A stretch of 22,524 bases of DNA, taken from a virus. The translations under genes and the position numbers were made by a program. Shown in pieces: positions 10,091 to 19,559 of this stretch. The notes under the pieces were generated by a model, which was not told the DNA's origin, made no database searches, and saw only the letters and a program-made list of their open reading frames with translations. The stretch's first letter is position 1; every line of letters begins with the position of its first letter. Where the stretch lies: IMG/VR virus record IMGVR_UViG_3300037247_000055, positions 1-22,524 of that record; one strand, 5' to 3'.

Positions 10091-11497
10091 ATGGTACAAA
10101 TTCCCGTACTTTCTGGCATATTTACAGATGCAAACTCTGACTTCCGTAATTCATACCCGCGCAATCTTATACCAGTGCCTAAAGATGAAGGCATATCTAA
10201 GGGTTATATACGTCCCGCAGATGGTATAGTTGAGTTTTCTTCCAATGCTCCTGGCATTGATAGAGGGGGAATTAATTGGGATGGTGTGTTGTATCGTGTG
10301 ATGGGGTCTAAACTTGTTTCGATTGATGAGTTCGGCGCTATTACCACAATTGGAGATGTTGACGCTGGGGGGCAAGTTACGCTTGATTATAGCTTTGACT
10401 TTCTTGGGATTGCATCGAATAAGAAATTGTTTCTTTTTGATAAAGGAACATTGAAACAAAACACTGATGAAGACTTAGGAGATGTTATTGATTTCATATG
10501 GATTGATGGCTTCTTCATGACGACAGACGGACTATCTCTTGTTGTTACTGAATTAAATGATCCTTTCGCCGTTAATCCTTTAAAGTTTGGTAGTTCAGAG
10601 ATTGATCCGGACCCTATCGTGGGGCTTTTAGAATTAAACAATGAAGCGTATGCACTAAACAGGTTTACTATTGAAGTGTTTGAAAATGTTGGTGGGTTAG
10701 GGTTTCCGTTTCAGCGCATTGAAAGCGCGGCTATACGTCGAGGGTGCATAGGCACACATGCCAAGGCTATATTCTTGGAACAGATTGCTTTTATGGGAGG
10801 TGCGCGCAATGAGGCTACCTCCGTGTGGCTTGGTATTAGCGGGCAATCAAGACGAATAGCAACGCGTGAGATTGATCAGATATTGGCAGAGTTTACGGAG
10901 ACACAGCTTGCCGATGTTGTGATGGAGGTGCGTGTAGATAAAGGGCATCAATTTTTATACATTCACTTACCTGATAGAACTATTGTTTATGATGGTGCTG
11001 CTTCTGCTATTGTGGGCCAGCCTATTTGGTTTACGCTTGGATCAAGTGTTGTTGGTAATTCAATTTATAAAGCACGCAATCTGGTTAGAGTGTATGATAA
11101 ATGGATTGTGGGCGACCCAACGGATAATAGAGTAGGTCGTTTTGTTGATAATATATCATCTCATTATGGAGAATTAATAGGGTGGGATTTTGGGACTATC
11201 ATTGTTTATAATGGTGGGTTTGGTGCTGTTTTTCATCGGTTGGAGCTTGTTAGTTTAACTGGACGTTCTGCCTTTGGTGATGATTCAACCATCTGGATGA
11301 GTTACTCGTTTGATGGGGTAGCGTTCAGTCAAGAGTTTCCCTTACCTGTTGGCAAGCAAGGCGACAGAAACAACCGTATTGCATGGCTTCAAGCTTTTGC
11401 TATGAATAATTGGGCTGTTGTTAAGTTCAGAGGTACAAGTGATGCTCATATGTCTATTGCTAGACTTGAGGCAACCCTGGAGCCTTTGAATGTCTAA
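10091..11497 (+). CDS. Tail hub / packaged DNA stabilisation protein, P22 gp10-like
   Basis: Length 468 matches P22 gp10 (472). It starts MVQIPVLSGIFTDANSDFRNSYPRN, comparable to the gp10 start with N-x-D-x-x-N and a xxPVN/RN motif. It has the family features GLLELNNEAYALNR (about 175-188), ALN-FTIEVFENVG, RRGCIGTHAKAIF (about 215-227), the repeated beta-propeller-like blades (YRVMGSKLVSIDE, WLGISGQSRRIATREIDQIL, QFLYIHLPDRTIVYDGA), and ETQLADVVMEVR like gp10 EEMATGVMETLR. In P22 it seals the portal channel with gp4 and forms the tail hub. The ATG begins directly after the preceding stop. Confidence 0.9.
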   Translation: MVQIPVLSGIFTDANSDFRNSYPRNLIPVPKDEGISKGYIRPADGIVEFSSNAPGIDRGGINWDGVLYRVMGSKLVSIDEFGAITTIGDVDAGGQVTLDYSFDFLGIASNKKLFLFDKGTLKQNTDEDLGDVIDFIWIDGFFMTTDGLSLVVTELNDPFAVNPLKFGSSEIDPDPIVGLLELNNEAYALNRFTIEVFENVGGLGFPFQRIESAAIRRGCIGTHAKAIFLEQIAFMGGARNEATSVWLGISGQSRRIATREIDQILAEFTETQLADVVMEVRVDKGHQFLYIHLPDRTIVYDGAASAIVGQPIWFTLGSSVVGNSIYKARNLVRVYDKWIVGDPTDNRVGRFVDNISSHYGELIGWDFGTIIVYNGGFGAVFHRLELVSLTGRSAFGDDSTIWMSYSFDGVAFSQEFPLPVGKQGDRNNRIAWLQAFAMNNWAVVKFRGTSDAHMSIARLEATLEPLNV

Positions 11498-12422
11498 ACC
11501 AGTAATTCCATTAGATAGTGAGCTCGCAAAGATATTCGGTAACAATACTAGAATATTCAGGGCAATGCGTGAGTTGTTTAAGCAATCAGGTGATTTATCC
11601 CCTGCTGCTATTGATGAAGCACTGATTGCTGCGGGAACGGCTGATAATAAAGCTGTTCAGGCTCTCGATACACTTGAAAGAATAGCGAATGCAGTTGAAT
11701 CTTTATCATTAGCCCCTCAAAAAGAAGATGTTAAAGAAGATGATTTAACTCCAAGATCAGAATTGGTAATACCAGATACCTTAGCTGATTTATCGCCACG
11801 GTTTGAAGAAGACCCAACTATTTTAAAAGAGTCGGATATAGGTAAGAGTGTTCAAGCATTCAGTGCGAATTTAGATACATATGCTGCTAATTCTTTAACG
11901 TCTGGTGAACTTAGTCAATTACAAAACATCAACTCTGTAACTATTTCAAATGCACAGTGGGTTTTTCTTGGCAACTTCAATCAAGCATTAACAACAACGA
12001 GTAATGTTAATTTTGGAACAGGTACTTTCTCAGGTAAAATACAAACTGGAGATTATTTGGACTTAGCAACAGGAAGAACGACTCTTGTTGTACAGGCTGG
12101 CGGTTCGATATACAGGTCTGCCACTAGCAGTGGGTCAGCCGCTTTTCAAGGGTTTGGTAATGTGCAATACGAGGGGAGGAATGCCAATGGCTTTGGTCAT
12201 TTCTTCGTTACAGGCCCGTCAGGTTTAGAATCTCTTGCAATTGTTGATCAAAAAATAAGAATTTCTGGCACTGCGGCTACCTTGTCGAGTGGCACAGGAA
12301 CGCCGGAGGGCGCAGTCTTCGCGCCTGTTGGGTCATTATTTACAAGAACAGATGGTGGTGCAGCGACTTCTTTATATGTTAAAGAGACAGGTACGGGTAA
12401 CACTGGATGGGTTGGAAAATAA
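11490..12422 (+). CDS. Tail needle or fibre-like virion protein, positional gp26 equivalent
   Basis: It overlaps the hub gene by 8 nt, with GGAG just before the ATG. The 310 residues have a helical N-terminal part (about 1-75), an acidic linker (about 76-115), then a Gly/Ser/Thr/Asn-rich beta region (about 115-310). The C-terminal stretch with GTPEGAVFAPVGSLFTRTDG and GTGNTGWVGK resembles ends of tail fibres and short tail proteins of other phages. It holds the place of P22 gp26, the trimeric tail needle, but I see no clear gp26 sequence match or long coiled coil. A trimeric tail or fibre role is likely; needle is inference from position. Confidence 0.65.
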   Translation: MSKPVIPLDSELAKIFGNNTRIFRAMRELFKQSGDLSPAAIDEALIAAGTADNKAVQALDTLERIANAVESLSLAPQKEDVKEDDLTPRSELVIPDTLADLSPRFEEDPTILKESDIGKSVQAFSANLDTYAANSLTSGELSQLQNINSVTISNAQWVFLGNFNQALTTTSNVNFGTGTFSGKIQTGDYLDLATGRTTLVVQAGGSIYRSATSSGSAAFQGFGNVQYEGRNANGFGHFFVTGPSGLESLAIVDQKIRISGTAATLSSGTGTPEGAVFAPVGSLFTRTDGGAATSLYVKETGTGNTGWVGK

Positions 12423-12470: not shown

Positions 12471-12806
12471 ATGACAACAACAGTTGAAAATATTATACCA
12501 GCAAAGGATGCGGAATCATCTAATACTGCTCAATACACATCGAATGATGTAAAAACGATTATTGATAAATTCACTGCAACAAATATTAGTGCTGGAACTT
12601 TAACATTATCAGTTAATATTGTTCCCACTTCAGGGAGTGCATCAAACACAAACTTAATTGTTGACGCTAGATCAATTCTTGAAGGCGAAACTTACACCTT
12701 CCCTGAGTTGGTGGGGCATATCTTGACCACAGGAGATTTTATATCTACTAACGCCAGCGCAACAGGCTTGACAATTCGCGCAAGCGGTCGAGTGACTACT
12801 ACATAG
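12471..12806 (+). CDS. 111-residue Thr/Ser-rich protein, possibly structural
   Basis: The ribosome binding site AAAAGGAT (12457-12464) precedes the ATG. The product is rich in Thr, Ser, Ala and Asn, with alternating hydrophobic residues, and holds NISAGTLTLSVNIVPTSG and a xSILEGETYTFPELVGHIL segment (about 72-90). I recall small phage proteins with the pattern T-x-x-N-x-S-x-x-x-x-x-x-S-V-N-x-V-P-x-x-G and a later LxxGExYxFPExxGhxL as conserved in tail-adjacent positions. No catalytic motif is seen. It has composition like the 115-residue protein at 128-475, though the two are not clearly homologous. A tail-related role is inference. Confidence 0.75.
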   Translation: MTTTVENIIPAKDAESSNTAQYTSNDVKTIIDKFTATNISAGTLTLSVNIVPTSGSASNTNLIVDARSILEGETYTFPELVGHILTTGDFISTNASATGLTIRASGRVTTT

Positions 12807-12889
12807 TGTTGCAATTATGGATAAATTGATGCATACTAACAAAAGTGCTGAGTTTTCGCGGTTCCAGCCTCGCATAAAGGAAGAAATTT

Positions 12890-13708
12890 ATGCAAGTTGC
12901 TGAAGTTCCCATAAATAAAATTGCTGAGATTATGCAGGATATGCCACAGGCTGAATGTCCTGTTGTTCATCGTTTTGGTGAAGGTATTTATATTCGTGAG
13001 GTGACAATGCCAGCGGGTACTCTAGCCGTTGGTCATATTCAGAAATTTAAACAGAATAATTTTCTATTGCAGGGTAAGATTGCAATGATCGGTGATGATG
13101 GCGTTAAGATACTTCAAGCACCGTTGTTTTTTGTTGGCGAGCCAGGAAGAAAAATAGGTTTAGTTCTTGAGGATATTGTTTGGCAGAATATCTGGTCTAC
13201 TGATGAAACTGATATTGAAACTCTTGAAGATACCTATATGGAAAAGAGTTCTGATAGTGTTTTAAAGAAAGAGCAGCTTGACGTTATCGATTTCATTAGC
13301 CGAGAAGCAGACCGTATAGATTATAATCAAGTTATTGAAGATTCCCCATTTACCCATGAACAAGTTAAAATTCAGGTTGAAAATGAGTTTGATCAAATTA
13401 AAATGCCTGAGCCTTGGAATGCGGTTACTACACTGAGGAAGTCCAACATTCAAGGTAAAGGTATGTTTAGCACATGGCCTATTGAAAGCCATGAATGTAT
13501 TGGCCCCGCAAGAATAGATGGGAAAAGAACACCATTAGGAAGATATACTAATCACTCAGTTAATCCTAACTCTTACCCTATTATGGAGGGTGACGATGTT
13601 TACTTATATTCATCACGTTCTCTTGACGGTTGTAAGGGTGGAAGTTTCGGTGAAGAAATCACAGTTGATTATAGAGATATGTTAAAACTTTCAGGAATTG
13701 AATTATGA
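12890..13708 (+). CDS. Cupin-SET fusion, putative protein methyltransferase
   Basis: AAAGGAAG sits before the ATG. The 272 residues hold two domains. Residues about 1-120 follow the pattern of a phage cupin family (VVHRFGEGIYIREVTMPAG, LLQGKIAMI, EPGRKIGLVLEDIVWQ, ending TLEDTYMEKS). The usual metal-binding H-x-H...H is only H49 here (GHIQKFKQNN), so metal chemistry is probably lost. After a linker, about 176-265 is a compact SET domain: GKG (189-191), RYTNHSVNPN (218-227) and GEEITVDYRD (254-263). These match the AdoMet-binding N-H-S motif and catalytic-Tyr motif of SET lysine methyltransferases. There are no pre- or post-SET Cys clusters. Length between GKG and NHS is short for the family. 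It sits where P22 has gp14, before the ejection genes, with ATGA overlap to the next gene. Methylation of a virion, ejection or host protein is inference. Confidence 0.8.
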   Translation: MQVAEVPINKIAEIMQDMPQAECPVVHRFGEGIYIREVTMPAGTLAVGHIQKFKQNNFLLQGKIAMIGDDGVKILQAPLFFVGEPGRKIGLVLEDIVWQNIWSTDETDIETLEDTYMEKSSDSVLKKEQLDVIDFISREADRIDYNQVIEDSPFTHEQVKIQVENEFDQIKMPEPWNAVTTLRKSNIQGKGMFSTWPIESHECIGPARIDGKRTPLGRYTNHSVNPNSYPIMEGDDVYLYSSRSLDGCKGGSFGEEITVDYRDMLKLSGIEL

Positions 13709-14355
13709 CAGGTGTAGCAACAGCTATTGCAGTGACAGGAATAGGAGCCTCTCTTCTTTCCGCAAGCGCACAAAAGGGCGCAGCAGAGGACGCAACAGCG
13801 GCACAAGTACAGGCGTCTGAGGCTGGCATTGAAGAACAACGAAGACAGTTTGACAAAATACAGGAACTATTGCAGCCTTTTGTTAGCGGTGGTGCAGCAG
13901 CATTCACAGCACAAGGAGCCTTAACAGGGCTTCAAGGCCCAGAGGCAGAGCAAGCGGCAATTGACGCTATACAGGCCGGTCCTGAGTTTGGCGCATTGGT
14001 TGAAACAGGTGAAGAGGCCATCTTACAGAATGCTGCTGCAACTGGTGGATTACGGGGCGGTAACGTACAACGTTCATTAGCTCAATTTAGGCCTCAGATA
14101 CTTAGCTCATTAATTAATCAAAGATTTAGCCGTCTTGGCGGTCAAGCGCAATTAGGTCAAGCATCGGCGGCTGGTGTAGGTAGTGCTGCATTGCAAACAG
14201 GTCGAGATGTACGTGCTTCTTTAGCGGCTGGTGGAGAGGCAACGGCTATCGGTGCAGCTACTAGAGGGAAAATACAAGCTAATTTATTTGGCGATTTCGG
14301 CGATGTATTTGGAGAGTTTAGAGAGTCCGAGTTCGGGCAAAGTTTAGGATTTTAA
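13705..14355 (+). CDS. DNA-ejection protein 1 (P22 gp7 position)
   Basis: This 216-residue protein, coupled to the cupin-SET gene by ATGA, begins with a hydrophobic Ala/Gly segment (about 3-22, TGVATAIAVTGIGASLLSA) suitable for membrane insertion. It then has FDKIQELLQPFVSGGAAAF (about 49-67) and the Ala/Gln/Gly-rich part ETGEEAILQNAAATGGLRGGN (about 101-121) followed by LGQASAAGVGSAALQ. I recall L-Q-P-[FY]-V-x-x-G and E-E-A-I-L-Q-N-A-x-A-T-G-G-L-R-G-G-N as a hallmark of podovirus DNA transfer proteins. Size is near P22 gp7 (229). It would be packed in the head and injected before DNA to build the trans-envelope tunnel. Confidence 0.85.
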   Translation: MTGVATAIAVTGIGASLLSASAQKGAAEDATAAQVQASEAGIEEQRRQFDKIQELLQPFVSGGAAAFTAQGALTGLQGPEAEQAAIDAIQAGPEFGALVETGEEAILQNAAATGGLRGGNVQRSLAQFRPQILSSLINQRFSRLGGQAQLGQASAAGVGSAALQTGRDVRASLAAGGEATAIGAATRGKIQANLFGDFGDVFGEFRESEFGQSLGF

Positions 14356-14356
14356 A

Positions 14357-15649
14357 ATGGCTGTAGATTTATCAAAATTTCTAGGAAATATACCAAGCCC
14401 TGTACAAAGGATAAGGGAAGGTGCTTTGTTTGGTCAACAACAAGCAGATAGAAGAACTGAACTTGAAGCCGCAAGATTGCAGAGGGAACAACAACAACAA
14501 ATAAATGCTGAACTAGCAGCTCTTGCACAAAAAGAAAACAAGACACCAGAAGATTTCATTAATTTAATGACACGGTTTCCTAGTATATCGCAACAGTTTC
14601 AAGCCCCGTTGGATGCCTTGAATACGCAACAACGTAAGACTGCTATCTCAGAAGCAACTAATGTATTTGCTGCTTTATCGGGCGGCAATAGTGAGGCTGC
14701 TATAAAGCTTTTAGAGGACAAGAAAACGGCTTCTGAAAATTCAGGTGATGAGATAGGTGCAAGACGTGCTGAAATATTGATTGAATCAATTAAACTAAAT
14801 CCTGATGCTGCTTTAACGAGTGCGGGTTTGTTCTTATCTCAAGCTGTTGGTGGTGAGAAGTTTGCCTCAACGTTTGAAACATTAACAGGTCGAGCGGGAG
14901 AAAAAGCTGAAGCGGCTATTGCTAAGGCCGCTGCTGAAACAGACAAAACTATCGCTGAAACTCTAAAAATCAAAGCAGAAACAGGTGAAGAAGAAATACC
15001 TGAATTTAAAAATATTGTCCAAAATCCAGACGGTAGTTCAATAGGCACAAACACCTTAACTGGCAAAAGAGAAATTATTCCCACTAATTTTGAAGGTGCA
15101 GCCCCACAAACGAAAGCTCAATTCGAGGCCATTAATAAACTTGTTGAAGTTGCGAAGAAAGATGATCGCGTAAAAGACTTTGTACAAGTTAGTACAAAAT
15201 TTGACAGAATAGAGAGCGCACTTGATACAGCAGCCGGTGATATTTCGCTTATATTTGCGTTTATGAAAATGCTGGACCCTGGCTCAACAGTTCGTGAGGG
15301 TGAGTTTGCCACCGCACAGAACTCTGGAAGCGTTAATGAAAATATATGGGCTACTTATAATAAGGCCATAACGGGTGAAAGACTGGTCCCGTCAAGAAGG
15401 GCAGATTTTAAAGCTCAGTCAGTAGCTATATTTGACAAATCTAAAAAAACAGCCCTCAAAACAATCGAACCCATTATGGGACAGGCTAAACGATTTAAGT
15501 TACGCCCTGAAACAATAGAAGAAGCTATCTTTGGTCTACCCGAAGAAGTGCAAGAAGAAAGTGTGGAGGCCGTTGATACGGGTCGTGTAAATGCAACAGG
15601 TGAAAGATTGTTTCAACTGTCTGATGGTTCATTTGTGGCGAGAAAATAA
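14357..15649 (+). CDS. DNA-ejection protein 2 (P22 gp20 position)
   Basis: The 430 residues (P22 gp20 has 471) are mostly helical and rich in Gln, Ala, Glu and Lys, with a coiled-coil-like N-terminus (QQQADRRTELEAARLQREQQ region, about 28-55). A conserved stretch, ISLIFAFMKMLDPGSTVREG with EFATAQN after it (about 296-325), is one I recall from many phage DNA transfer proteins. The C-terminus LFQLSDGSFVARK is a short strand pair. It is one base after the gp7-like gene and shares a base with the next (TAATG). It is expected to be a virion protein expelled into the periplasm or membrane; no catalytic motif is visible. Confidence 0.82.
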   Translation: MAVDLSKFLGNIPSPVQRIREGALFGQQQADRRTELEAARLQREQQQQINAELAALAQKENKTPEDFINLMTRFPSISQQFQAPLDALNTQQRKTAISEATNVFAALSGGNSEAAIKLLEDKKTASENSGDEIGARRAEILIESIKLNPDAALTSAGLFLSQAVGGEKFASTFETLTGRAGEKAEAAIAKAAAETDKTIAETLKIKAETGEEEIPEFKNIVQNPDGSSIGTNTLTGKREIIPTNFEGAAPQTKAQFEAINKLVEVAKKDDRVKDFVQVSTKFDRIESALDTAAGDISLIFAFMKMLDPGSTVREGEFATAQNSGSVNENIWATYNKAITGERLVPSRRADFKAQSVAIFDKSKKTALKTIEPIMGQAKRFKLRPETIEEAIFGLPEEVQEESVEAVDTGRVNATGERLFQLSDGSFVARK

Positions 15650-17535
15650 TGGTTGACAGAGCTGTATCACTAGAAGAATTAAACGAATTTCAACCAGCGG
15701 AACAGGTTGTTCCAGAGGATAGAGTCGTTTCTGCTGAAGAACTTGACACATTTCAAGTGCCGAGTGCGCCTGAAGAAACAGACTTTGCTGATGATATATT
15801 GCGTCAAGTTGGCTTAACAGGTCGCGCAGTTGCAGAGGGTGGGGCGGGGCTTGTAGGTATTGTAGCCGATCCTATTGCTGTCCCTGTAAGGTCACTTATT
15901 AATTTATTTCGAGAAGATAAACTACCCCTAGAGAGCTTTCAAACCGTTGTTGGTGATTTATTAACTCAAGCGGGTGTGCCTGAACCTGAAAACAAAACAG
16001 AAGAAATAGTTCAAGTCGTTTCACAAGCCCTTGTTGGTGGTGGCGGCGTTCCTGCAATAGCAAGGGGCGTTGCTCAAAGAGCCGCCGCGCCTGTTACGAG
16101 GGCTGTTTCTGGAGTGCTTGCAGCGCAACCTGGGGCGCAAATAGTAGGCGCAGGAACCGGACAGCTTGCAGCGGAAGTTGCTGAAGAGGCGGGGGCTGGC
16201 CCCGTTGGTCAAATTGCAGCATCTCTCGTCGGCGGTGTGGCTGGTGCGGGTGGTGTGACAAGATTGGCAGGTGCTAGAGCCACGCCCGCAATAGCAGGGG
16301 ATGTTGCAGCAGCGGAAGAGCGCGGGATTCGTGTATTAACAAGTGATGTTAAAGCACCTGATACATTTGCGGCTAAGTGGCTTCAGAGTTCAGGTGAGAA
16401 AATACCTGTAGCCGGTACGGGTCCGGTCCGTGTGGCTCAACAAGAAGAACGTGTTCAAGCTATTAAAGATACATTGCGAGAATTCGGTGCAGAAGACACG
16501 GCAGCACTTACCGATGATGTTATGAGGGATTTACTCAAGACCCGCAGGAAAGAAATTACCAAGCATACACAAGCTAAGAAAGAAGTCTTTGCTGAAGTTA
16601 AAGATGCTGGCATTGTTCCTGTGCAAAGAACAATTGACACTATTGATGCTGAAATAGGAAAACTAACACGCCTTGGCACAGATGAATTAAAACCAGCTAT
16701 TGAAAAGTTAACAGATTGGCGTAATGCAATACAAGGACAAGGTATTGATAATATTGAAACGTTAAGAAAACAATTAGGTGCTTCTTTTAGTGCTTCTGAC
16801 TTGACGACTATTAAAAATACTAGCAAAGAATCACTAAGTAATATTTATGGTGCTATCCGTGATGATATAGGTGATTTTATTATACAAAACGGAACACCCG
16901 CAGACCATAAAAAATGGCTTAACGCGAATAATAAATTATCCGGTTTAATTGGTGAGCTTGATGCTTCAGCACTTAAGTCTGCATTAAATAAAGGTGATGT
17001 AACGCCTGAAGTTGTCAGAAGTTTGCTGTTTAGTAGAAAACCTTCCGATGTTAGAACGTTATTCAAAAATCTATCCCCTAAAGGGAAATCACACGCTAGG
17101 GCGGCAATTCTTAGTGAAGCTGCTGAAAAATCAATAACTGGTGACAAAGTAAGTCCTCAAAAGTTCGTTACACAAATTAACAAATTACAAAATCAATTTG
17201 GTGTATTCTTTAAAGGCGACGATCTTAAATCAATTAAAGGTCTTGAACGCGCTTTAAGATTAACTGAACGGGCCGGTGTGGCGGGTATTAGCCCACCAAC
17301 GGGGCAACAATTAGCTATTCCTGTTGGTGCTGCAATATTAACCGACTTACTAGGTGGCGCTGGTGCCGCTTTAGCCGCCGGTGGCACGTTAGGAGGTCTT
17401 GCCCGCATTTACGAAAGCAAACCAGTTAGAAACGCTTTGATAGCACTCTCTGGAACAAAATCAGGTGGTAAAGAAGAGGCCGCAATATTTAAAAGATTAA
17501 TCGCAGCAGGTCTAACGCAGCAAAGGAATGAATAA
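15649..17535 (+). CDS. DNA-ejection protein 3 (P22 gp16 position)
   Basis: The 628-residue product (P22 gp16 has 609) opens with a repeated motif: DRAVSLEELNEFQP at 3-16 and DRVVSAEELDTFQV at about 23-36. A Gly/Ala/Val-rich hydrophobic region (about 55-225, with GLTGRAVAEGGAGLVGIVADP and AGTGQLAAEVAEEAGAG as parts) could insert into membranes. The remainder is helical and charged (about 225-540), followed by a second small hydrophobic Ala/Gly stretch (GAAILTDLLGGAGAALAAGG, about 562-581). No lysozyme or transglycosylase motif is visible. It is the last of three ejection genes and is coupled by TAATG at both ends. The gp16 role, in delivering DNA across the inner membrane, is from position and composition. 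Confidence 0.78.
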   Translation: MVDRAVSLEELNEFQPAEQVVPEDRVVSAEELDTFQVPSAPEETDFADDILRQVGLTGRAVAEGGAGLVGIVADPIAVPVRSLINLFREDKLPLESFQTVVGDLLTQAGVPEPENKTEEIVQVVSQALVGGGGVPAIARGVAQRAAAPVTRAVSGVLAAQPGAQIVGAGTGQLAAEVAEEAGAGPVGQIAASLVGGVAGAGGVTRLAGARATPAIAGDVAAAEERGIRVLTSDVKAPDTFAAKWLQSSGEKIPVAGTGPVRVAQQEERVQAIKDTLREFGAEDTAALTDDVMRDLLKTRRKEITKHTQAKKEVFAEVKDAGIVPVQRTIDTIDAEIGKLTRLGTDELKPAIEKLTDWRNAIQGQGIDNIETLRKQLGASFSASDLTTIKNTSKESLSNIYGAIRDDIGDFIIQNGTPADHKKWLNANNKLSGLIGELDASALKSALNKGDVTPEVVRSLLFSRKPSDVRTLFKNLSPKGKSHARAAILSEAAEKSITGDKVSPQKFVTQINKLQNQFGVFFKGDDLKSIKGLERALRLTERAGVAGISPPTGQQLAIPVGAAILTDLLGGAGAALAAGGTLGGLARIYESKPVRNALIALSGTKSGGKEEAAIFKRLIAAGLTQQRNE

Positions 17536-19559
17536 TGGGATTTATAGTTACAAAACCATTCGAAGTATTTAATGACTTAAAGGGTAATCCTTTAGAGAAT
17601 GGCAAATTGTTTATAGGGGTCACAAATCTAAATCCTAAAACTAATCCTGTTTCTGTGTTTTTTGATGAGGCGTTAACAATACCCGCTGATCAGCCTATTC
17701 GTACTATTGGAGGTTATCCTTCACAAAATGGAACACCGGCAAATATTTATATTGCAAACATTAATTATTCAATAACAGTCGATGACAAAAATGACAAATT
17801 TATTTATTCAAGGCTAGACAGTGATAATATACCCGATGAGGTTCTAGCGCGGGATACTATAAGCGACTTAACGGCTATTCCAAAAGCCTCTCTTGCCGAT
17901 AATCAACAAACATTAGTTAGCGGATATACCACAATAGGTGATACTGGTGGCGATCCTTTCTTTTGGAATAGCGCAAGCACAGCCACAGAGGATTTAATTG
18001 TGACGTTTGAATCCGATGAGGGCGGTACTGGAAGATGGATTAGAATATTAGAGGATAGAATAACATTTGCTATGGGTGGCGCTGTAGGCTCAGGCTCAGA
18101 CGAAACCACCGAAATGCAACGCGCTATGGACTATATAGAGGCCAACGGCGGGTTATTAACCGCAGACGGAAGCAAACAATACATCACCTCTTTAAGCCTA
18201 CTTATTGAAAACGCCAGTGATTTTATCATAGATTTTAATGGCGCTGAGATTTTCACAGCAAATAGTACCGCCGTGACATTTAATCAGGGAATCATTCGAA
18301 CGAATACATGTACTGGCTATACTATCAGAAACTTAACTGGTGACGGCAACAGAGCAAACAGAACCCCGGCAGAGGTTTCCAGCCATGCGTGCGCTTTATT
18401 TGGTTGTAGTAATTTTAGATATGAAAATATTGATATGGTAAACAGTGTTGTTGACGGATTTATTCTTACAACGCTCGATAATACTGATGCAACAAAATCA
18501 TGTTCCGATGGTGTTTTTGTTAATTGTTCTGCAGACAATTCCTTTAGAAATGGTCTTTCCGATATTAATAGTATAGATGTTGATTTTTATCATTGTAAAT
18601 TCAAAAACTCTAATGGTGTTGATCCAGAAGCTGGTGTTGATATTGAATCGGATGCAGGAAGTGTAACCCCAGCTAATTCAAGATTGAGATTTTTTGGATT
18701 AAGCACAGACGGCAATAATGGATTTGGGTTTAAAAACACCACAAAGACTGGAAATCGGGAGGTTTATTTATACTCACCACATTTTAAATCTGATTTGGGG
18801 GGTGCCATGTCTATTGGTGCCGCAACATATGTCTATGGTGGGTTATGTGAAGAGTATAGTTCTATAACTCATTCGGATAATTTATTTGAAGGCATAATTG
18901 AGTTTAATTCTTCTACAGCAGAAACACGGGGTATTATCGACGGTATGCAGTTTAAAAACATCACCGCCGCTAGTAGTAAGTGTGTGTTTGGTACAGGTTC
19001 AACAGGGCCAATCTCAGTCCTTAATTGTACTGCGGATAATGTATTATCATTCGTTGATATTAGGGCCGAAGATGGACAGATACATAAGAATTATATTGAT
19101 GGTTCTACTTCCGCTATTTTATTTCAAGGCGACGGAACGCACTGTTCTGAAAATACGGTTGTGGCGGATTTGGGCGTTGCTATTCAAGTGGCGGGGGGTA
19201 ACTATCATACCGTAACAAACAATACTGTTAAAAGTGCCGTTGGACGCGCTATGGTAGTTAATGGAATAGGAAGCACATTTACAGGAAATAAATTCTTTGG
19301 TGTAAGTACGCCAACAGACGCATGGATCAGAGATTTTGGAAGTCTCAACTATTATAGTGATAATTACTTTGAAGCAGTAAGTTCTGAGCCTACGATATTA
19401 GCTATTAAATTCTCAGGCGTTCCCGCTGTTGTAGCATGGAACCGAGTAACTAATTTACATACTACGGATGCTTATGACTTTGTAGGTGGGTTTGTAACCG
19501 CATTTTTCGGCTATAATACTGGTGGATCAGCGAATGATATAAATGTAAAAAGATCGTAG
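17535..19559 (+). CDS. Tailspike with P22-type head-binding domain
   Basis: This 674-residue protein (P22 gp9 has 667) has two regions. Residues about 1-95 match the P22 head-binding domain that docks on the gp4/gp10 tail: VTKPFEVFNDLKGNPLENGK, LFIGVTNLNPKTNPVSVFF, an xxPIRTxxGYP turn, and NYSITVDDKNDKFIYSRLDSD. After a linker (ARDTISDLTAIP...), residues about 180-670 are Asn, Ser, Thr and Gly-rich with repeating short strands (for example DSDAGSV, NCTADN, NNTVKSAV), consistent with a right-handed parallel beta-helix that binds and may cut a surface polysaccharide. Catalytic residues cannot be assigned by eye. It sets host range. It shares one base with the preceding gene. Confidence 0.9.
   Translation: MGFIVTKPFEVFNDLKGNPLENGKLFIGVTNLNPKTNPVSVFFDEALTIPADQPIRTIGGYPSQNGTPANIYIANINYSITVDDKNDKFIYSRLDSDNIPDEVLARDTISDLTAIPKASLADNQQTLVSGYTTIGDTGGDPFFWNSASTATEDLIVTFESDEGGTGRWIRILEDRITFAMGGAVGSGSDETTEMQRAMDYIEANGGLLTADGSKQYITSLSLLIENASDFIIDFNGAEIFTANSTAVTFNQGIIRTNTCTGYTIRNLTGDGNRANRTPAEVSSHACALFGCSNFRYENIDMVNSVVDGFILTTLDNTDATKSCSDGVFVNCSADNSFRNGLSDINSIDVDFYHCKFKNSNGVDPEAGVDIESDAGSVTPANSRLRFFGLSTDGNNGFGFKNTTKTGNREVYLYSPHFKSDLGGAMSIGAATYVYGGLCEEYSSITHSDNLFEGIIEFNSSTAETRGIIDGMQFKNITAASSKCVFGTGSTGPISVLNCTADNVLSFVDIRAEDGQIHKNYIDGSTSAILFQGDGTHCSENTVVADLGVAIQVAGGNYHTVTNNTVKSAVGRAMVVNGIGSTFTGNKFFGVSTPTDAWIRDFGSLNYYSDNYFEAVSSEPTILAIKFSGVPAVVAWNRVTNLHTTDAYDFVGGFVTAFFGYNTGGSANDINVKRS

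Follow-up and report, generated by a model that had tools for sequence, protein, structure and literature searches.

Why does a phage keep a gene for a SET-type protein inside its virion operon, directly ahead of its ejection proteins, and on what might that protein act? The gene lies on the plus strand at 12890..13708 of the window, by which we mean the whole 22,524-nt stretch of viral DNA analysed. It runs from an ATG start to a TGA stop (13706–13708), encodes 272 residues and matches PHROG 34170 over its full length (E 4.5e-76). Three parts follow one another on the plus strand: a cupin domain (about residues 12–122; 12923..13255), a helical linker assigned from model secondary structure (residues 123–167; 13256..13390), and a compact SET domain supported by profile, Pfam, model and fold matches (about residues 178–262; 13421..13675). 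The ATG of the next open reading frame (ORF) is at 13705, with the SET stop and the ejection-gene start sharing an ATGA on the plus strand (13705..13708); relatives are arranged likewise.

The surroundings are those of a P22-type virion operon. Genes for the small and large terminase subunits, portal, scaffold, coat and Ad3 adaptor lead to a gp10-like head-closure protein, Hc3 (10091..11497; phrog_578, E 2.4e-92). The order then continues, all on the plus strand, with a 310-aa gene (11490..12422) assigned to the P22 gp26 (tail needle) position by place only, its PHROG matches being weak and of unknown function; a 111-aa gene (12471..12806) with homologues in many relatives, where it recurs upstream of the same position; the cupin-SET gene; a P22 gp7-like (T7 gp14-like) ejection protein (13705..14355; phrog_598 'DNA ejection', E 1.8e-26); a gp20-position ejection protein (14357..15649; phrog_917 'released from the phage upon host infection', E 1.1e-8); and a gp16-position ejection protein (15649..17535; phrog_770 'DNA transfer protein', E 2e-73). 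In P22 the corresponding order is 10-26-14-7-20-16, so the cupin-SET gene occupies the place of gene 14, as the first-pass annotation of this sequence had proposed. T7 has gp13 in the matching place before gp14, and P22 gp7 is the counterpart of T7 gp14, which forms the outer-membrane pore of the ejectosome (PMC8954989). Downstream of the ejection proteins is a 674-aa gene (17535–19559) with no Pfam or PHROG match; by position, it is perhaps a tailspike.

The SET assignment was first made from three motifs, GKG (189–191), RYTNHSVNPN (218–227) and GEEITVDYRD (254–263), and these, like H49 of the cupin part, are found at those positions of the 272-aa translation. The window protein alone scored below the Pfam SET cut-off (17.8 versus 22.4 bits, E 0.0044). 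Among 46 homologues, selected at <85% identity, 42 matched Pfam SET (E up to 0.01), the best at E 1.3e-9. Compared with the PDB, the family profile matched MLL1-4 (MLL1 at E 8.7e-10), EZH2 and vSET of PBCV-1 (9e-6). AlphaFold, given an alignment of 41 window and locus sequences with GenBank rows left out, modelled the whole protein at a mean pLDDT of 93.8. A PDB search with this model returned almost only cupins, so the SET part (residues 166–272) was modelled and searched separately. Its pLDDT was 92.5, and all 50 of the 50 PDB fold matches listed were SET-domain proteins, vSET included. The top viral fold matches were proteins annotated as SET in uncultured Caudovirales phages and in giant viruses. 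A chance match to the motifs is excluded by the homologue Pfam matches, the profile and the fold matches.

The active site is conserved as well as the fold. All of G189, G191, F193, R213, G217, R218, N221, H222, P226, E256, T258 and Y261 are invariant across the 46 homologues, and Y219 is Tyr or Phe in 45. Placed on the plus strand, the AdoMet-site motif G189-K-G191 (13454..13462) thus has both glycines invariant, RYTNHSVNPN (13541..13570) contributes R218, N221, H222 and P226, and GEEITVDYRD (13649..13678) contributes E256, T258 and the presumed catalytic Tyr, Y261. The signatures GxG, NH(S) and GEE-I/L-x-x-D-Y are conserved in the homologues with every position invariant or nearly so, apart from S223, which is Ser in 37 and Ala in nine. 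G191 and N221 are 29 residues apart, and such a short GxG-to-NHS interval indicates that the SET-I insert is small or absent. Median dN/dS (NG86; 21 independent pairs, 16 for the linker) was 0.036 for the cupin, 0.056 for the linker and 0.060 for the SET domain. With its key residues invariant and its dN/dS pointing to strong purifying selection, the domain has been kept functional and is no relic. The first-pass annotation had staked its SET reading on a profile or structure prediction giving that fold and on conservation of the N-H-S and Tyr motifs; profile and model both gave SET, and N221, H222 and Y261 are invariant with S223 varying to Ala. A SET fold with an intact site is almost certain, and the protein is probably an active lysine methyltransferase.

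How closely is this gene tied to the ejection proteins? A scan of viral contigs with the single window protein found no relatives; an alignment-based search found 414, possibly including cupin-only genes, and 80 (IMG/VR contigs), which are full-length, were kept. Rhodoferax phage P26218, Pseudoalteromonas phage PH1, zth2-2 and two Manatee Spring phages also carry the full-length gene, as do genome contigs; among the latter are Paraburkholderia contigs of 97 and 369 kb that are probably prophages. The first-pass annotation had asked whether the gene always precedes the gp7-like gene, and it nearly always does: the gp7-like gene comes next in 89 of 95 full-length loci. Of the six exceptions, four are contigs that stop at the gene or shortly after it, and two, zth2-2 and L099, have a next gene that goes unrecognised by the profile. 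The proposed coupling to the first ejection gene is likewise borne out, since the SET stop is overlapped by the following start codon in 86 of 93 informative loci (overlaps of 1, 4, 13, 16 or 19 nt), and in the remaining seven that codon lies 1–11 nt downstream.

The order differs in zth2-2, where cupin-SET follows a terminase-like gene and is itself followed 2 nt later by a small gene, with a GNAT gene just beyond. There (L003, 6929–8927), the cupin-SET and GNAT genes are each succeeded by a small protein with a similar STMLTG...LGK-TLLG tail. Two other loci, L101 (a MAG) and L102 (Paraburkholderia ferrariae), match most of the query although the best single ORF alignment leaves some of it uncovered, as would be expected of a broken or locally diverged gene. 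In MW202557 the cupin-SET ORF (L004, 4356–5240) is unannotated in GenBank.

We arrive at a reading in which the protein is a lysine methyltransferase acting on a virion or ejection protein made alongside it, and we put the probability of this at roughly 0.5; for the class of substrate taken separately, the odds are about even. The cupin-SET protein would be made together with the ejection proteins, and its cupin may dock it on a partner, as the stand-alone cupins of the same operon position may do. The SET domain would then methylate one or more lysines of a co-expressed virion protein during late assembly. The most plausible target would be an ejection protein, any of the three, or the complex they form; methylation might then adjust how the injected conduit packs, how soluble it is or how it inserts into the membrane. 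In support, other phages have at this place cupins or acetyltransferases of the GNAT type, which are a second class of enzymes that modify proteins. Methyl-lysine has been measured on structural proteins of phages for which no methyltransferase gene is known (PMC13288928).

Lysine conservation was examined as a guide to the substrate. The gp7-like neighbour has no conserved lysine among 87 SET-bearing phages, which makes a fixed methylation site on the nearest gene product unlikely, and gp10 has no conserved lysines either. Two columns of the gp20-like protein are enriched for lysine, with frequencies at window K168 and K197 of 0.72 and 0.89 in SET-bearing phages versus 0.31 and 0.33 in the rest; relatedness alone could produce this difference, which serves only as a lead. 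Some lysines are conserved in the MCP and the gp20-like protein, confounded by relatedness, and the gp16-like alignment had too few rows. Close relatives lack SET or have an unrelated helical family in its place, so methylation is not required for ejection generally. The tight gene order may also reflect an assembly partnership rather than an enzyme–substrate pairing.

The enzyme could instead be real and directed at the host, being made late or packaged and injected, and modifying translation or envelope proteins or countering defence. SET enzymes act on many protein substrates, and a place in the ejection cassette fits a protein that is injected. In another system, methylation of host EF-Tu shifts during phage infection (PMC13288928). 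However, the protein has no demonstrated secretion or packaging signal, and strict next-gene coupling over 93 loci suits an assembly partner better than a mobile moron gene, and we consider a host substrate unlikely.

What other phages keep in this place bears on the question. We surveyed 80 viral contigs, including phages without SET, through a gp7 alignment (A5). Because these contigs are the 80 that best matched a query headed by the window gp7, the following proportions describe a sample rather than a census: 37 carry a member of the cupin cluster (36 cupin only and one cupin-SET, L152), 29 a helical-looking family, phrog_21390 (two members scanned), six a P22-gp14-like protein (three scanned), three a GNAT acetyltransferase, three a 110-aa gene, and two are singletons. 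Among individual phages, Pseudomonas phage PfAn1 has an annotated acetyltransferase in this place, ct3Oc712 has a cupin, and the T7-like Sphaerotilus phage R1 has a cupin upstream of an internal virion protein. The position before the gp7-like gene is thus a swappable slot, newly recognised here. Members of phrog_21390 ('..DDVADGD..'; L113, L124 and 27 other survey loci) are without a Pfam match. One P22-gp14-like protein matches an acetyltransferase PHROG weakly (E 1.1e-5), and an hhalign comparison of two small alignments gave no support for P22 gp14 as a GNAT relative.

Short leaders accompany the slot genes. In the window, a 28-aa ORF read on the DNA, MDKLMHTNKSAEFSRFQPRIKEEIYASC ('...AE...P'; 12817..12903, plus strand), overlaps the start of the cupin-SET gene, and L092 has a short leader immediately ahead of its SET start. 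In 40 of the 80 surveyed contigs (within L113–L192), the slot gene itself carries, as an in-frame fusion, a leader whose motif is loosely similar. Near-identical leaders, such as MKDLRDTADAETNGIQQP in L114, L166 and L180, stand before a cupin, a GNAT and a helical domain, which are unrelated to one another. The slot leader could mark a recombination junction, act as a translation leader, or be a targeting tag that these proteins share. A broader, and tentative, idea is that the slot could be an exchangeable 'modifier' position in short-tailed phages, filled by SET, GNAT or other folds that act on injected conduit proteins.

The slot survey also bears on a non-enzymatic explanation: an assembly chaperone or minor structural protein in which the cupin does the work and the SET part serves as an AdoMet- or peptide-binding module with hardly any turnover, or none. 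Many relatives have a cupin-only protein in this slot, Pfam (PF11090) calls T7 gp13, in the equivalent place, a probable scaffold, and P22 gp14 is a 'head morphogenesis' protein. Yet a purely structural SET domain would not need the catalytic Tyr, NH and GxG, all of which are invariant, and this explanation strikes us as distinctly unlikely.

The N-terminal domain was called a phage cupin in the first-pass annotation, and this holds. PDB cupins were the top Foldseek matches of the whole model (E down to 8.5e-6, probability 1.00), which places the domain in the double-stranded beta-helix fold, and the family profile matched Cupin_2 (E 0.0063). The further statement that its metal-binding His set is reduced to a single His is correct for the window copy, which has H49 with K54/Q55 and has lost H55, but not for the family, which conserves H49 (41/46), Q51 (40/46) and H55 (41/46). 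In the homologue alignment, the motif-1 region (residues 49–56; 13034..13057, plus strand) reads H49-x-Q51-x3-H55, with Q55 in the window; this is motif-1-like spacing with His-to-Gln and Glu-to-His replacements. The canonical ligands of metal-binding cupins (the motif 1 HxH...E and the motif-2 His) are lacking in the family pattern of the 46 homologues, where H27 is the only other widely conserved His besides H49 and H55. A non-canonical metal site in relatives is possible, judging from these residues. On a cupin tree, most SET-bearing cupins fall together, with 3–5 gains or losses versus 22 expected for shuffled labels; given these 3–5 changes, a single origin of SET-bearing cupins is not demonstrated.

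The cupin's nearest stand-alone relatives raise the idea of a short tail fibre or adhesin, because the N-terminal domain matches phrog_12032 ('short tail fiber protein') and phrog_24280 ('tail fiber adhesin') at E ~1e-28 each. The proteins carrying these labels are cupin-type and lie directly upstream of ejection genes, and the labels are probably propagated misannotation. Since the corresponding domain of the window protein folds as a cupin, no feature of a fibre or of receptor binding turned up, and a SET domain in an adhesin makes little sense, we hold this to be very improbable. Scarcely credible is a writer–eraser fusion, in which a JmjC-like metal/2-oxoglutarate oxygenase demethylase is coupled to the SET writer: JmjC demethylases do belong to the cupin superfamily and the family keeps H49, Q51 and H55, but the H-x-D/E...H iron triad is absent (H-x-Q, with H55 lost in the window) and the best fold matches are small single-domain cupins.

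How much of this was known? The first-pass annotation had suspected that a phage SET domain might not be new and had singled out the fusion. The first point stands, as phage SET proteins are already in databases, and one GenBank relative is named after the PBCV-1 enzyme; the fusion itself is spanned end to end by PHROG 34170. That family (for example in Pseudoalteromonas phage PH1 and Rhodoferax phage P26218) has the same cupin-linker-SET architecture in the same slot before the gp7-like gene, is listed as 'unknown function' without a domain assignment, and differs from the window copy in retaining H55. We found no published description of the fusion in the open-access literature, most subscription journals being outside the search. 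With SET methyltransferases (PF00856; PBCV-1 vSET, MLL1, EZH2) the protein shares the fold and all core motifs; unlike them, it is very compact, cupin-fused and phage-encoded in a virion operon. A similar compact SET (RTPLG...NHS..PN) occurs in phrog_28741 (Pelagibacter phage Kolga gp27), but as a stand-alone mini-SET lacking a cupin and outside the ejection cassette. Conversely, the cupin-only proteins of phrog_12032/24280 (Vibrio phage 1.003.O, Dickeya phage Amaethon, Sphaerotilus phage R1) have the homologous N-terminal domain at the same position and no SET domain. P22 gp14 (DUF2824, phrog_651) and T7 gp13 (PF11090) share the operon position, directly before gp7 or T7 gp14, yet show no sequence or domain relation to cupin-SET (Pfam gave SET only, and phrog_651 was not matched). 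We thus regard the gene product as a probable SET methyltransferase whose partner domain is unusual and whose genomic position is strict and suggestive of function.

According to a 2026 mSystems study, phage-protein methylation had never been reported before it (PMC13288928). A conserved, phage-encoded SET enzyme tied so strictly to the ejection operon would provide a dedicated writer together with a short list of candidate substrates, and raises the possibility that phages chemically modify proteins of their own particles. It also offers a testable role for the little-understood gene at the P22 gp14/T7 gp13 position. If the slot does hold exchangeable modifiers, post-translational modification of ejection proteins would be a general and overlooked step of podophage assembly.
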